Below, one piece after another: positions 6,522 to 15,191 of a stretch of 15,191 nucleotides of DNA. The notes beneath the pieces are model-generated. The model made no database searches, was not told where the DNA came from, and saw only the letters and a program-made list of their open reading frames with translations. The stretch's first letter is position 1. Each line of letters begins with the position of its first letter. Origin of the DNA: Eubacteriales bacterium (GTDB lineage: Bacteria; Bacillota; Clostridia; Peptostreptococcales; Acidaminobacteraceae); the NCBI GenBank assembly GCA_030625285.1, contig DAOURC010000008.1, positions 1 to 15,191 of the forward strand, in the 5' to 3' direction. The position numbers and the translations under genes were made by a program.

Positions 6522-6549
6522 GAATAGGGCAATTCGCCCTATTCTTTTT
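6522..6549 (+). terminator. Rho-independent terminator after buk
   Basis: GAATAGGGC (6522-6530), a 5-nt loop and GCCCTATTC (6536-6544) form a perfect 9-bp GC-containing stem followed by a T run. It begins one base after the buk stop. The convergent SAF-domain gene ends inside the T run; read on the minus strand the hairpin lacks a good U tract, so it may stop that operon only partly. Confidence 0.92.
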
Positions 6550-7153
6550 ATAATGAAATCTCAAAATGTCCATTTCCTCTATTCGAAATAATATAATTTC
6601 TCTGTTCTTCTGTCACTAATAATACTGCGTACCTTGGATAATCATCACTAGGTTTCATGTAAATCAAATTATAGACAATCACTCCTTCAAATATTTTTAA
6701 AGAATTGAATTCTTCTTCATCAAAATGAGCAACTTCTACCGTATCTCCCTTTTGACCTACCCAACTATCAGCTTTATCAATATCGAGTTTGATAGTTACC
6801 AATCTCATTTCTTCATCTTTTTTAATAAATTGATCCTTGTCAGTGGTCAAGTTAGAAAGAAGTAATTCACCAGGGATCAGTTCTCTTATCGCTACTAAAT
6901 CTTTAAACTCATTTATATATCCATATTCTTTTGCTATATCTTGATCGATTGAAATCCTATCTATTTTAGCTTCGCTGATTAATTCTCCTTGCATTATTTT
7001 TTCATTTACAACCAACACCGTTATCTCGGAATCATTATTAACTAAATACGCTTGAACTGCAATTATCAATAATGACACCAACACAGCTAAAATAAATATT
7101 ATTTTTTTCCTATTATCTATCAACCGGTAATGTAAACTTTCTCGTAATTTCAT
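6548..7153 (-). CDS. SAF-domain pilus assembly protein, CpaB/RcpC-like
   Basis: A 201-residue protein with a short basic cytoplasmic N-terminus, one transmembrane helix (about 17-37) and an extracytoplasmic SAF domain starting ITVLVVNEKIMQGELISEAK, then an RcpC-like region (RLVTIKLDIDKADSWVGQKGD). CpaB/RcpC proteins support Flp pilus assembly at the cell envelope. The ATG at 7153 is chosen because GAGGGGG lies just before it; an upstream in-frame ATG at 7198 would add 15 unremarkable residues. The gene overlaps the upstream small membrane protein by 41 nt in another frame. It is the last gene of the operon, whereas cpaB often comes first in proteobacterial Tad loci. Function is by family; the cargo or partner is unknown. 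Confidence 0.8.
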   Translation of the reverse strand: MKLRESLHYRLIDNRKKIIFILAVLVSLLIIAVQAYLVNNDSEITVLVVNEKIMQGELISEAKIDRISIDQDIAKEYGYINEFKDLVAIRELIPGELLLSNLTTDKDQFIKKDEEMRLVTIKLDIDKADSWVGQKGDTVEVAHFDEEEFNSLKIFEGVIVYNLIYMKPSDDYPRYAVLLVTEEQRNYIISNRGNGHFEISL

Positions 7154-7523
7154 AGGCCCCCTCATTTGATAATAGCGACTTATAAATATGGCTTTCAAAA
7201 ATTACTTTGATTTTTATTTCACCATTTAAATCCCTATCAATCTCTTTCAAATTGACTTCAATATCTTCATAAGAGATTTCACTTATGTCAAAGTATCTTT
7301 TCATAGCATGCTTCACTTCATATTCTTTAGCAGATAAACTGCCATGTGATAATTTGCTTAGATCTAATTCGATGATAATATTATTGAGGCCAAGATCGAT
7401 GTAATCCTTTAGGATTTCCATCTCCAATAAGACGATGTTTTTTTCAACCATAAATAAAAGCGTCGGAATTATTAACAAGGCTAAAAGTACAACAACAATT
7501 ATAAGCACTGAAAGATCACTCAA
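7113..7523 (-). CDS. Small single-TM protein of the Tad locus (TadE/pseudopilin-like architecture)
   Basis: I do not recognise this family. The 136-residue protein has only a four-residue head (MSDL), a strong hydrophobic helix (about 5-25) and a soluble, acidic, strand-rich remainder, which is the plan of TadE-like minor pilins. The start is TTG in a 4-nt TTGA overlap with the stop of the preceding gene, with AAGAAGG about 7 nt upstream, so expression is probably coupled and modest. It overlaps the SAF-domain gene by 41 nt. Its place between the pilin genes and the CpaB-like gene suggests a minor pilus or assembly component. No cysteines are present for disulfide links. Confidence 0.72.
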   Translation of the reverse strand: MSDLSVLIIVVVLLALLIIPTLLFMVEKNIVLLEMEILKDYIDLGLNNIIIELDLSKLSHGSLSAKEYEVKHAMKRYFDISEISYEDIEVNLKEIDRDLNGEIKIKVIFESHIYKSLLSNEGAYEITRKFTLPVDR

Positions 7524-7903
7524 TTCACAACCTTCTTTACAATAATATCTCTTTTATATTCATAAGCTATTTTCTTGATTTTATGCTTTAGAAATCCTGT
7601 AATCCATCCAAACTCACTATCACCGATTACCGACACCGAAATAATATCTCCTAATCCCTTATCCTCATCATCAACTTCGATGATTACATTATTGACTCCA
7701 ATGCCTTTTAATTTTTCTTCAATGTCAATTTTCTGACTCGATGAAAGCGTTCCATTGTCTTCCAACGCATATAAGTATGGCCTCATCAAGTATATAATCT
7801 CAATATTTTTATTTATCACCATAACAAATGTAAATATCATCACAGATATAATCAGTATCACTATGATTGAATACGTTATAGTAATAGGTAGTGTAGTATT
7901 CAA
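7520..7903 (-). CDS. Small single-TM protein of the Tad locus, possibly DUF4320-like
   Basis: A 127-residue protein with an N-terminal transmembrane helix (about 8-32), a charged segment starting NKNIEIIYLMRPYLYALEDNG, and a soluble domain with a V-N-N-V-I-I-E-V strand. The 'R-P-Y-L ... G-T-L' region recalls DUF4320, a TadE-like family found in clostridial Flp loci; this is a recollection, not an alignment. The start is TTG (7903) in a TTGA overlap with the stop of the Flp-like gene. No clear Shine-Dalgarno precedes it, so it depends on ribosomes terminating on the pilin gene. That would keep it well below the pilin level, as expected for a minor pilin. Confidence 0.72.
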   Translation of the reverse strand: MNTTLPITITYSIIVILIISVMIFTFVMVINKNIEIIYLMRPYLYALEDNGTLSSSQKIDIEEKLKGIGVNNVIIEVDDEDKGLGDIISVSVIGDSEFGWITGFLKHKIKKIAYEYKRDIIVKKVVN

Positions 7904-8112
7904 TTAGTTACAAAAATCTCATTTTTTATTGTTGTCTCCCACCAATCATCAAGTTCTGTTACAGCTTTTTGAGATATTCCCTTTATCCCTGGGAATAGTA
8001 TAAATACTGCAACGATTAGAGCAATCGCTATGCTTAGTAAAGCACTGATTCCAAATTCTCCTCTCTCATTGGATAAAAACTTCTTGAATTTCTTCTTTAA
8101 ATTATTAATCAT
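7900..8112 (-). CDS. Flp-like (type IVb) pilin candidate
   Basis: Seventy residues, the size of Flp pilins. A lysine-rich leader (INNLKKKFKKFLSNERG) is followed by a long hydrophobic helix (about 20-42, FGISALLSIAIALIVAVFIL), then a short tail with a W-W pair. Leader, hydrophobic helix and position after tadC fit the major pilin. The cleavage site is unusual: canonical Flp pilins have G, then cleavage, then Glu at +5 with a Tyr next, whereas here Glu directly follows the only likely Gly (RG-EFG). The ribosome binding site AGGAGG (8122-8117) lies 4 nt before the ATG and is the strongest in the operon, as expected for the most abundant subunit. It overlaps the tadC stop codon. No prepilin peptidase gene is in the window. 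Confidence 0.75.
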   Translation of the reverse strand: MINNLKKKFKKFLSNERGEFGISALLSIAIALIVAVFILFPGIKGISQKAVTELDDWWETTIKNEIFVTN

Positions 8113-8120
8113 AACTCCTC

Positions 8121-8817
8121 CTAATATATATTTTCTATAGATTCCATGAATTCAATAAATATCGGGTAACTAATTAAAAATATCAATACAGCAGCCAATA
8201 GCATACCTGCAAAAAAAATCTTAAGTTTATTCCTATCCCCCTTTTTTTGAATAATTCCAATGTATTTATTGAACATCATATCTTCTTGATACTTAAGCAC
8301 TTCGTTTCTCATTCCAACCTGAAGGGCATTTTTTATCGCATATTCAACTGAAAAATACTCTTCTTTATCAAATTTTTTAGAAATGTTTTCAAGATATTCT
8401 GTTAAATTATAATGTCGAAGATATTTTTCCCCCTCCTTTTTAAGATGTTGTTTTATTTCATTGTTATTCACTACTTTGTATATTTTAGAAATAATATCTT
8501 CAAGTCTGAGTCCAGCATTAATTTGATTATTGATAAAACTAAATATTTGATATAAAACAATTTGTGAATTTTCTCGCTTTTTATTGATACTAATATTTTT
8601 CAATGTTTCATAGATTAACAAAACTATAAAAGACAATAAACTCGTTTTTTCTATGTCTATTTGATTTCTAAAAAAAAATAATTACTATTATAGAACACCA
8701 TAGAAAAATAATTTCATTGTAATACTCTTCTATAATCCTGTATTTTCTATGAGGATAAACTCTTTCAATCAGAATATAAAATATGTATATAAGCAATAAC
8801 CATTGAATAATTATCAT
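8121..8817 (-). pseudogene. TadC-like type II/IV secretion F-domain protein, split by a frameshift in a T9 tract
   Basis: An ATG at 8817, five bases after AAGGAG, opens a frame (MIIIQWLLLIYIFYIL) that ends at TAG (8670-8668) after 49 codons. Dropping one T from the nine T's just before it joins the frame to the downstream reading frame that runs to 8121, giving a 231-residue protein. The joined protein has transmembrane helices near 2-18, 34-50 and 60-73, a GspF/TadC cytoplasmic domain (LYQIFSFINNQINAGLRLEDI onward) and a C-terminal helix (about 205-222). The downstream part alone (8636-8121, from a TTG) has no ribosome binding site and lacks the first two helices, so it is not a credible independent gene. 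The break may be a real mutation, a phase-variable switch, a slippage-decoded gene or an assembly error. TadC normally forms the inner-membrane platform with TadB. Confidence 0.75.
8670..8678. repeat. A9 homopolymer (T9 on the coding strand) at the tadC frame break
   Basis: Nine A's on the plus strand read as T9 in the gene. An eight-T version restores one open frame. Tracts of this length are prone to slipped-strand mispairing and to RNA polymerase slippage. Confidence 0.9.
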
Positions 8818-8826
8818 AAATACTCC

Positions 8827-9342
8827 TTAATAGCTATATTTTCCCACATCGTAGAATATTACCAGAGCTATGCATATTGAAAACAGCGAAATAATTATGA
8901 TTAAATTATTTGATAACCCTTTAATATAAACTCTAATTAATGCGAGTATTGTTAAAAATATCATTATGAATAAAAATATCCTGTCTTTATAATTTTTTAT
9001 ACTGTTGTTATATAAGGTTTCTTCAATATTAAATGCTTCATGTTCGAATTTTGATAACAATTTCAACATATCTCCGTTATTCTCAATTACTGATTGAATA
9101 TTGATAAAGACATTTCTCATAAATGGTGATTTTATAGTATTCAAGTCTTGTTCTAGAGCCACAGATGCTTCCATTCCCCTATTAATCCTTAAAATGAAGT
9201 TTTCGAAAAAATCATTATAGCGACTACCTACTCCTTGTTCATATGTCTTTTTAAAAATAAATACCGCATTATTATCAACCGAAGCCCATCTTGTCATTGT
9301 ACTCAGTAATTTAATATTTTCATTTTTTTTAAAACTGTTCAT
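8827..9342 (-). CDS. TadB-like type II secretion F-domain protein
   Basis: A 171-residue protein: an amphipathic cytoplasmic GspF-like domain (about 20-115, including FENFILRINRGMEASVALEQD and the I-E-N-N-G-D-M stretch typical of TadB/TadC), then two transmembrane helices near 120-140 and 144-162. It is shorter than proteobacterial TadB (about 300 residues) and lacks N-terminal helices, so it may form the platform together with the TadC-like product. The ATG at 9342 is preferred because GGAGAG lies 6 nt upstream; the open extension to 9384 lies inside tadA. It overlaps tadA by 14 nt and ends 9 nt before the tadC start. The assignment rests on domain plan and order (tadA-tadB-tadC), with moderate sequence resemblance. 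Confidence 0.78.
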   Translation of the reverse strand: MNSFKKNENIKLLSTMTRWASVDNNAVFIFKKTYEQGVGSRYNDFFENFILRINRGMEASVALEQDLNTIKSPFMRNVFINIQSVIENNGDMLKLLSKFEHEAFNIEETLYNNSIKNYKDRIFLFIMIFLTILALIRVYIKGLSNNLIIIISLFSICIALVIFYDVGKYSY

Positions 9343-10423
9343 GATTTTCTCTCCTATAGACGACTTTCCATTTTTTATCTTCAATCAATGCGATTTCAAC
9401 AACTTTATATTTCCTCATATAAATTATATAGTCTAAACTTCTACCTATAATGCTTTTGATTTCATTATCTTCGTTACCAATTATTTTTGAGTTGATCAAC
9501 ATCTTTAATCTAGGTATAACTTCTTTATATCCAGAGGCATGTATAGTTCCAAAAGTTATATGATCTGTCAATCCAGCCATAATAAATTCCCACGCTTCAG
9601 GACCGACAATTTCTCCAATGCAATACCCATCAAGTGATAATGTAAGTCCATCTCTTATAAGATCAGATAAATTCACATTTTTCCCGTATTCATTTACAAC
9701 AATCTTTTCAACAATGAAATTATCACTCTTAGGATATAATTCATTTTCCGATTCACATACTAAAAACCTTTTATCATTTGGAATATAGTCTAGAATGCTT
9801 CTTAGCAGTGTTGTTTTCCCTGCTCCACCTCTACCGCAAATCAAAATATTTTTTTCGCGTTCAACGATATCTTTAATTAAATCAACAACATGCTTATCAA
9901 CCATTTCAACGCTCATCAAATCATCAAATGTATAACTGTTTTTTTTATGCTTTCTTATGCTTAAATTCGGTCCTAATGAACTCCTCGGAGGTATGCTTGC
10001 AGATATTCTCAATAGCCTTTCATGATCATCGACTCTATCATGGTTGTGTGTACTATTTAATTTTCCTCCATTTCTCAATATTATTAATTTGCAATAAGAT
10101 AGAAATTCATTTACATTTCTAAACTGAACATCGCTTTTATAATGGTTACCTCTTTTTTTAAAAATAATATTATCGTATCGAGTAATGTTAATGTCGCTAA
10201 TTTCTTCATCTTCTATGAGGTCTTGTAGTATTCCATATCCAAACATATGATTAAAAAGCGCTTTTGCAATATAATCAATTTCCGTTTGATTATTTAACAT
10301 TTCACTTTCAATAATTTTCTTATAAAATTGATCATAATTTTTTGTCGTTTCAATTTCCTTCATAAATCCTAAATCACTTTCCAACATTTCACTTGCAATT
10401 TTCTCAATGCTTATCTCTTTCAT
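9329..10423 (-). CDS. tadA: Pilus assembly ATPase TadA/CpaF
   Basis: A hexameric secretion ATPase (GspE/VirB11 superfamily) that drives pilin assembly from the cytoplasmic face. In its 364 residues, an N-terminal domain (about 1-180) carries the ISDINITRYDNI motif typical of CpaF. Next come Walker A GRGGAGKTT (197-205), the acidic box CESENELYP (223-231), Walker B GYCIGEI with E271, and the His box GTIHASG (292-298). The usual R-P-D-R just before Walker B is changed here to L-D-G-Y, a small departure from the CpaF norm. All ATPase residues are intact. ATG follows GAGGCGGTGATTGC, with only 4 nt separating it from the TadZ-like gene upstream. Confidence 0.92.
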   Translation of the reverse strand: MKEISIEKIASEMLESDLGFMKEIETTKNYDQFYKKIIESEMLNNQTEIDYIAKALFNHMFGYGILQDLIEDEEISDINITRYDNIIFKKRGNHYKSDVQFRNVNEFLSYCKLIILRNGGKLNSTHNHDRVDDHERLLRISASIPPRSSLGPNLSIRKHKKNSYTFDDLMSVEMVDKHVVDLIKDIVEREKNILICGRGGAGKTTLLRSILDYIPNDKRFLVCESENELYPKSDNFIVEKIVVNEYGKNVNLSDLIRDGLTLSLDGYCIGEIVGPEAWEFIMAGLTDHITFGTIHASGYKEVIPRLKMLINSKIIGNEDNEIKSIIGRSLDYIIYMRKYKVVEIALIEDKKWKVVYRRENHEQF

Positions 10424-10427
10424 GCAA

Positions 10428-11423
10428 TCACCGCCTCTCCACTATTTTATTAAATGTTTTTTTGTACTCTCCTATCATTTTTTTATTCATATCTTTTAGA
10501 TCAATCCATCTGAGCAATTTACCATCCGTTAAAAAGTGTTTTTTATTGAGTACTACATATTTATCCAAAAGCAAATTATCCTTAAGAAAAAAATAGTCTC
10601 CAATGAATGACTTGTTTTTAATCCCTACATAACTACACCTATTAAACTTTTTTGAACCATTGTTCACATTTATAATATTTTCATATGATATTTTATTTGC
10701 AACAATTACATGACTAAATAATTTCCCCAGTTTGCTATCGCATCGTTTTTCATCAAAATAGACAATGAGAAACTCAAAATCCTCTCTGCACTTGTTTATA
10801 AAATCCTCTAACATCAGATTTTCATCGTTTATATAACCACCTGGGAAAGAAACTAAATGAAATTTTCTGTACTTATTCTTAGCGTTTACTTTTTCAAAAC
10901 TATACATTTCATTAATATATATTTTTTCATCCTTTAAATTTACTTTGAGTCTTTTATCAGAAAAACAATTGATAGAATCACCGTCGATAAATAAAATGTT
11001 TTTCTCATAGCTCATTGCTTCTGTCAATAGAATGGCAAATTCGAAACTGCCACTAACTCCTATGATTTTTTTACTCTCATCAAACGACTTCTCTATATGA
11101 ATATTTTGATTATCATCTAAGTACTTCAACTCTTTTATTATTTGATATCCTTGATTTTTAAGAAAATTTATATATGGTTTTATTGATTTTCCTTTAACCC
11201 ACAAAATTATTTTCAATTTATTATTCTGGATGAAAACATTTTCTCTTTTTAAGATTTCAATATCGTCAATGAAAATAATAATTTGATCATACTCATCAAT
11301 CTTAAAATCAATAATATTCATAGAATTGAAATCTACAAATACTCCAAAGTTGTATTTTTCCCTATAAATCAATTTTTCAATCTTATTAATACTTTTAAAA
11401 TCACCAACAATAATTCGATTCAT
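10428..11423 (-). CDS. TadZ/CpaE-like protein with degenerate P-loop (putative pilus localisation factor)
   Basis: The 331-residue protein is rich in Lys, Asn, Ile and Phe. Residues 1-100 look like a receiver-type alpha/beta domain (FGVFVDFN, QIIIFIDDIE, KLKIILWVKG). From about 119 the pattern follows a MinD/ParA-type ATPase: KIIGVSGSFEFAILLTEAM stands where the P-loop should be, KNILFIDGDS (141-150) matches the strand and DxD after it, and FEFLIVYFD matches the Walker B strand. The lysine and threonine of the P-loop are gone, so ATP hydrolysis is doubtful. CpaE/TadZ proteins place Tad pili at a cell pole. Being first in the operon directly before tadA supports the call. The start has AAGGTGAT five bases upstream. 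I did not align it, so remote homology is inferred. Confidence 0.68.
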   Translation of the reverse strand: MNRIIVGDFKSINKIEKLIYREKYNFGVFVDFNSMNIIDFKIDEYDQIIIFIDDIEILKRENVFIQNNKLKIILWVKGKSIKPYINFLKNQGYQIIKELKYLDDNQNIHIEKSFDESKKIIGVSGSFEFAILLTEAMSYEKNILFIDGDSINCFSDKRLKVNLKDEKIYINEMYSFEKVNAKNKYRKFHLVSFPGGYINDENLMLEDFINKCREDFEFLIVYFDEKRCDSKLGKLFSHVIVANKISYENIINVNNGSKKFNRCSYVGIKNKSFIGDYFFLKDNLLLDKYVVLNKKHFLTDGKLLRWIDLKDMNKKMIGEYKKTFNKIVERR

Positions 11424-11499: not shown

Positions 11500-11523
11500 A
11501 AAAAAAAAGAGCCGTATAGGCTC
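11500..11523 (-). terminator. Rho-independent terminator after rplY
   Basis: Read on the minus strand: GAGCC, a 5-nt loop, GGCTC and then T9. It begins 6 nt after the rplY stop codon and separates housekeeping transcription from the Tad operon. Confidence 0.9.
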
Positions 11524-14829: not shown

Positions 14830-15096
14830 GTCGTGCACCTTAATCGATAAACATATACCAACGTTACCCAAGTAGTTAACTCAAATCAGGCAGACCTACG
14901 GCACATGAAAGGTTTTGCTTACCGCTGCTTCCTTCCGGATCTGACGGGGTTCACAAATTTCCATTGCGTAGGACCCAATTATCATCATCACTTGCTTGGG
15001 GCAGCTTGACACATGCTTACCTCAATAAGGCGTTCAATCCTGCTATAGCGGATTGCAGGTTACAGGGCACCGCTACCTCCCCATCTAGCACGACAC
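14830..15096 (-). ncRNA. ffs: Signal recognition particle RNA, large (Alu-domain) type
   Basis: About 267 nt, the size of Bacillus/Clostridium scRNA. The S-domain core reads CCGGAAGGAAGCAGC with the GTGAACCCCGTCAG symmetric/asymmetric loop sequence, capped by the GGAA tetraloop that FtsY/Ffh recognise. The 5' part has GTGCTAG, GGGGAGGTAGCGGTGCCCTG and CTGCAATCCGC, matching the Alu domain of B. subtilis scRNA. The ends pair: GTCGTGC (15094-15088) with GCACGAC (14836-14830). The ends given are estimates from that pairing. No promoter fits into the 17 nt between this gene and the tRNA, so it is probably cut out of a joint transcript. Confidence 0.94.
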
Positions 15097-15113: not shown

Positions 15114-15191
15114 TGGCAGAGAGAGCGGGACTTGAACCCGCGGGACCTTGCGGTCTTACACGCTTTCCAGGCGTGCCCCTTAGCCAACTCG
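15114..15191 (-). tRNA. tRNA-Ser(GGA), 5' end outside window
   Basis: The visible 78 nt cover the D arm (from CGAGTTGGC), anticodon stem-loop CACGC-CTGGAAA-GCGTG with anticodon GGA (15168-15166), a long variable arm with GACC-GCAA-GGTC (class II, serine), the T arm GCGGG-TTCAAGT-CCCGC, acceptor strand TCTCTCT, discriminator G and an encoded CCA (15116-15114). About 11 nt of the 5' end are missing. Confidence 0.95.

Follow-up and report, generated by a model that had tools for sequence, protein, structure and literature searches.

A one-base frame change at a run of nine T's in the tadC-like gene of a Tad-like pilus operon

Why should one gene of an otherwise orderly pilus operon change frame at a homopolymer? 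The window analyzed here, a contig of 15,191 bases (C17) from the draft genome of a Eubacteriales bacterium, presents this question in a tadC-like platform gene. An earlier note on the same DNA offered four explanations: slipped-strand phase variation, RNA polymerase slippage, a +1 ribosomal frameshift and a homopolymer sequencing error. A plain recent slip mutation, which is the simplest reading, was not listed separately among them. Overall, we find that an ordinary slip or a miscount is most likely.

A tadC-like gene in two frames

The Tad-like pilus operon lies on the minus strand between 11423 and 6548, in the order tadZ-like, tadA-like, tadB-like, tadC-like, small pilin-like, two TadE-like and cpaB-like genes (Table 1). 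Apart from tadA, the gene names are based on position and weak scores, and TadZ, Flp and TadE are used by analogy. The tadB-like gene probably starts at the ATG at 9342, since, with the window's own protein set aside, four of eight homologues have a length of 171 residues. The name TadC-like draws its support from the operon, in which the gene adjoins a tadB partner and a TadA ATPase, the neighborhood of TadC in Tad/Flp systems. The fold matches, to PilC, EpsF and OutF, support the name weakly and are no proof of identity. The family search gave no T2SSF (PF00482) match for this protein, and a sequence search of the PDB returned one match, with an E value of 0.37.

Table 1. Features of the window, with the evidence for each name
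Feature	Position	Strand	Details
tadC-like gene, whole extent	8817-8121	minus	697 bases; frame change at T9
tadC-like 5' piece	8668-8817	minus	49 residues; ATG at 8817; stop TAG at 8670-8668
T9 homopolymer, frame-change site	8670-8678	minus	ninth T is the first base of TAG
tadC-like 3' piece	8121-8669	minus	182 residues counted from the break; open frame to 8121
tadZ-like	10428-11423	minus	position and collinear relatives; no family match over cut-off
tadA-like ATPase	9329-10423	minus	PF00437 over cut-off; best NCBIfam TIGR03819 (TadA family), E 1e-36, below the model's cut-off
tadB-like	8827-9384	minus	weak PF00482 (T2SSF), E 0.0023, below the curated cut-off
Small pilin-like (Flp-like)	7900-8112	minus	position and look of the sequence
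Two small TadE-like genes	7113-7903 (7520-7903, 7113-7523)	minus	N-terminal hydrophobic stretch; named by position
cpaB/rcpC-like	6548-7198	minus	TIGR03177, E 0.014, below cut-off
Second T9	within 11500-11523	minus	tail of a terminator-like hairpin (11523-11509), hence non-coding
Gene upstream of the hairpin	12149-11529	minus	ends just before the hairpin; presumably ribosomal protein L25/Ctc, from its look
Bacterial large SRP RNA	14831-15093	minus	223 bits
tRNA match beside the SRP RNA	15117-15191		cut by the contig end

Direct reading of the minus strand from the ATG at 8817, which is preceded by AAGGAG as the earlier note's mention of a good ribosome binding site implied, gives ATT TTT TTT TAG across the tract, with the stop inside the T9. 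The placement of that stop immediately after the nine T's was off by one base. The frame arithmetic was correct: the two frames lie one base apart, the two pieces add up to 231 residues (49 + 182) after a one-base correction, and the opposite shift fails to join them. A T9 at the break of two frames one base apart is the sequence pattern of an A9/T9 transcriptional-slippage gene. The first starts within the 3' piece are TTG codons at 8636 and 8621, and inspection by eye showed no clear ribosome binding site before either; the second is the start used for the predicted protein P0001, the window's own 3' piece.

The run encodes Ile-Phe-Phe and is expected from the codon use of this genome, where TTT accounts for 72% of Phe codons and ATT for 44% of Ile codons. 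A run of eight T's also occurs in the open part of tadC (8211-8218), and the A8 runs reported for tadA and tadB exist, at 9939-9946 in tadA and at 9323-9330 in the tadA-tadB overlap. Promoter-like sites are about as frequent as in shuffled sequence (35 versus 36.1).

That the rest of the operon is intact agrees with its collinearity with two relatives, L113 and L114, which have the same order of tadZ-like, tadA, tadB, tadC, small genes and cpaB-like gene. The tadC match in both comes from the 3' (C) piece, and the 49-residue 5' (N) piece had no tblastn match there at E 0.01. The small pilin-like gene of L113 is matched over 27 of 70 residues, in a stretch that is partly masked. Two tadA-like ATPase matches in relatives contain one internal stop each, a TGA in L116 (G017:C12:148608-149663) and a TAG in L124 (G019:C88:1563-2609).

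Homologues of the TadC-like protein

When the C piece was searched against about 5.8 billion proteins, nine rows were returned: P0001 itself, a partial record (P0003) and seven complete homologues. All seven complete homologues consist of one frame of 228-231 residues, and the frame break is thus a singleton. This rules out two stable separate genes, an arrangement that, if common to the relatives, would have spoken against a broken gene. P0003 is marked partial, has 187 residues and no Met, and begins five residues before the break position, so its contig may end near the tract.

When the two pieces were aligned separately, they filled columns 1-49 and 50-231 of the 231-residue homologues, with neither gap nor overlap at the break. 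They are equally conserved, at 84% (5' piece) and 82% (3' piece) identity to P0004, and we found no second lesion. Identities to P0004 are 90% for P0002 and 83% for P0005, so the broken gene is about as close to P0004 as whole relatives are. An ageing pseudogene is ruled out by the equal conservation and the absence of further damage. The break at T9 is therefore borne out by the reading of the tract, the single-frame homologues and the piecewise alignment.

No independent assembly of the same species was found in the TadC and TadB protein searches. The only TadC row above 86% identity is P0001 (two member sequences, one contig), the nearest other row being at 86%. For TadB the nearest full-length rows are at 84%, and a fragment (P0018) from a 699-base contig is 91% identical over 43% of the query.

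More broadly, 22 of 61 genomes searched for tadC gave matches. The 60 genomes other than the window's own contain 25 matched places. No stop interrupts 24 of them, and the remaining one, weak and only 52 residues long, contains a TAA. Many of the weaker matches among these 60 relatives may be paralogues. G001, the single genus relative (73% complete), had no tadC match. Scanning genome contigs brought up no relative with the C piece and two loci, at 38-41% identity, with alignment A2. A DNA search of 41 family genomes gave only short matches, in four genomes besides the window's own. For the N piece alone no homologue was found, in a search that tests little because the 49-residue query yielded no candidates.

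The earlier note proposed counting the T's in related strains. DNA could be read across the site in four relatives, L003, L004, L113 and L114, which are about 42-46% identical to the C piece and represent two distinct sequences as printed; none has a long T run at the tract position. The closer relatives P0002, P0004 and P0005 were compared as proteins only. L113 encodes the same TadC-like protein as L004, which belongs to a genome (G029) of the window's own family; the title of the L113 record, 'delta proteobacterium ML8_F1', conflicts with that placement.

Homopolymers in the assembly and in coding sequence

The source draft genome comprises 1,064,934 bases in 201 contigs, is 62.8% complete and was probably assembled from a metagenome. 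We surveyed homopolymers in 67 contigs totaling 353,014 bases, a third of the assembly (80 of the 201 contigs were fetched, 14 of which are all N, and the window was added). Long tracts were defined as A or T runs of 8 or more and G or C runs of 6 or more. Of 112 such tracts, 68 lie in open coding frames, including two runs of nine, three have the geometry of a break, and 41, which were not read singly, are neither. Two candidate breaks were rejected: the G7 of L037 is a ribosome-binding site before an ATG, and the frame upstream of the T8 of L041 has no coding score. The tadC T9 is the only gene-breaking tract found among the 112. With 68 tracts in open frames and one gene break, the assembly is not generally homopolymer-prone, and the idea that it is riddled with homopolymer errors was rejected, leaving room for a single error.

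A codon-score scan for frame changes produced 30 candidates. The 28 that were read were judged to be ordinary gene starts, ends, overlaps or spurious frames, and the two unread ones adjoin candidates that were read. The scan is of limited sensitivity, as it missed the tadC break itself. The lengths of the contigs read, 2.5-20.5 kb, suggest a short-read assembly, and reported indel rates of short reads are very low (PMC5574713).

Long A and T runs were also counted in 345 ORFs on the 67 contigs (314,388 coding bases) and compared with 40 synonymous within-gene shuffles. The tadC T9 falls outside this set because its upstream piece is short. At length eight, A runs are mildly depleted (47 observed against a shuffle mean of 62.7, range 55-75) and T runs are not (17 against 15.8, 9-24). 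At nine, the counts drop to two for A (20.9, 11-30) and zero for T (4.3, 2-9). Runs of ten or more number one for A (12.9, 5-20) and zero for T (2.2, 0-5). Pooled, A/T runs of at least nine number three against about 40 expected, and are approximately thirteen times rarer than in the shuffles.

Such avoidance is expected if these runs are slippage-prone, and with T8 undepleted and A8 mildly depleted it fits slippage being costly in this organism. A fixed coding T9 would accordingly be unusual here. The drop at nine agrees with the threshold of Baranov et al. (2005; PMC1088944), who describe nine A or T as the length at which selection is evident in a large proportion of 108 genomes. They give transcriptional slippage as one likely reason for the avoidance, and also note hypermutability by replication slippage. 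Their paper includes six cases of such a break with single-frame homologues elsewhere, and the tadC break is of the same form.

Weighing the explanations

The best explanation, to which we give about an even chance, is that the T9 arose recently by slipped-strand replication as a one-base length variant of the tadC-like platform gene, and is not conserved. The Ile-Phe-Phe run would have slipped in replication, and the one-base change would have broken the frame. The variant would be present in cells, and not merely in the consensus; it would be recent, and would leave the tadC-like gene off or strongly reduced. Some full-length protein would probably still be made through RNA polymerase slippage, to which runs of nine or more T's are prone. 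In favor of a recent slip are the tract, the frame change, the single-frame homologues, the absence of a second lesion, the collinear operon and the finding of no other such break in the third of the assembly that was surveyed. In Aggregatibacter passaged in culture, mutations of the flp-tad locus are known to cause spontaneous loss of piliation (PMC9239275). Counting against it, no second strain was seen, one broken tract does not allow a rate to be estimated, and the organism avoids runs of nine.

Its serious rival, which we consider less probable but far from negligible, is a miscount of the homopolymer in the consensus or assembly of this one contig, the gene being whole in cells. In the single assembled sequence of one strain the two look the same, and several observations suit both: a gene that is whole in every complete homologue of the C-piece search, and an operon collinear with its relatives. 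The avoidance of coding runs of at least nine makes a T9 unexpected and so favors a miscount. Singletons with one-frame homologues are read as indel mutations or sequencing errors by the GeneTack authors, who expect sequencing error, not a genuine indel, where BLASTp confirms the singleton (PMC3711429), which weighs for a miscount and against a slip. On the other side, the 68 tracts in open frames include two runs of nine, and no other broken gene was found. The many short contigs also suggest short reads, which rarely miscount (PMC5574713). The sequencing error proposed earlier thus keeps a share of the probability, although no sign of miscounting was seen in the third of the assembly that was surveyed.

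Pili are often phase-variable, and the tract could be a contingency site at which changes of length switch Tad piliation between on and off within the population; T9 is short for such a tract. Outside the break the operon is intact, and replication slippage at homopolymers is reported to switch sortase-pilus genes in Bifidobacterium breve (PMC9187656). A second allele was not seen, however, the four relatives read as DNA (two distinct sequences) lack a long T run at the site, the low-powered search found no homologue of the N piece alone, and the run follows from Ile-Phe-Phe in a genome that prefers TTT. We regard phase variation as improbable. A similarly doubtful proposal is that the T9 is tolerated because RNA polymerase yields mixed transcripts, including full-length ones, and so provides TadC at a reduced, perhaps useful level. 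The threshold of nine and the six cases of Baranov et al. (PMC1088944), together with the same threshold in this genome, lend it some weight, but the avoidance may equally reflect replication slippage, and the arrangement occurs in no complete homologue, whereas sharing of the arrangement is the sign of function described in that paper. Polymerase slippage is plausible as a consequence of the break and conjectural as an evolved device: a real T9 would probably yield some full-length mRNA, and such rescue is compatible with a recent slip.

A programmed +1 ribosomal frameshift at UUU-UAG is highly improbable. From the sequence, Phe-tRNA could re-pair perfectly one base on, but programmed frameshifts are recognized by conservation of the break, which occurs in none of the seven complete homologues, and no Shine-Dalgarno-like stimulator is seen by eye upstream. 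A stimulatory RNA structure at the tract was rejected: the predicted folding of 8610-8700 is no stronger than that of shuffled sequences (z +0.47), 141 of 200 of which fold equally well or better. We thus found no positive evidence for a programmed ribosomal frameshift or an evolved switch. Less credible than either phase variation or tolerance taken singly is their combination, a graded control of Tad pili in an uncultured Bacillota bacterium, in which T-tract slippage would switch piliation and RNA polymerase slippage would keep a low basal level in the interrupted state.

Breaks of this kind are already known, and this instance is ordinary. It shares with the A9/T9 breaks of Baranov et al. 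(PMC1088944) the nine T's, a possible slippage product, homologues in one frame and the avoidance of nine. It differs from them in coming from a single assembly, in not being an IS element and in being known from DNA sequence. More generally, it has been remarked that genes broken at homopolymers may still yield functional products (PMC2627896). Within the type IV filament superfamily, the locus resembles the TadB/TadC pair of Tad/Flp systems (PMC6668835) in having a tadZ-like gene and a TadA-type ATPase followed by two platform-like genes side by side. The pair is divergent here, and the TadC-like protein, without a T2SSF match, is named from position and weak fold matches.

For pili, we found no case of a tadC tract switch, or of homopolymer slippage controlling a Tad pilus, in the open-licence literature searched. 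The nearest published case is the G-tract switch of the B. breve sortase pili (PMC9187656), in which a homopolymer likewise divides a gene of a pilus operon into two frames. Those G-tracts lie in pilin genes and have measured length heterogeneity, whereas here a short T-tract lies in a platform gene with one known allele. The rough-to-smooth loss of piliation in Aggregatibacter (PMC9239275) is similar in being a spontaneous mutation of a Tad locus, and the tadC break should also abolish or reduce piliation. The lesions described there are flp promoter mutations and one multi-gene deletion, and here the lesion is a homopolymer frame change with a predicted effect. A mutation causing loss of piliation is, by that example from culture, nothing strange in Tad loci.

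If the T9 is a miscount, it illustrates why homopolymers should be checked before pseudogenes are called in draft genomes. If it is real, it would be another A/T9 break that calls for a look at transcripts before the gene is annotated as dead, and the locus would be a candidate for control of a Tad pilus by slippage.
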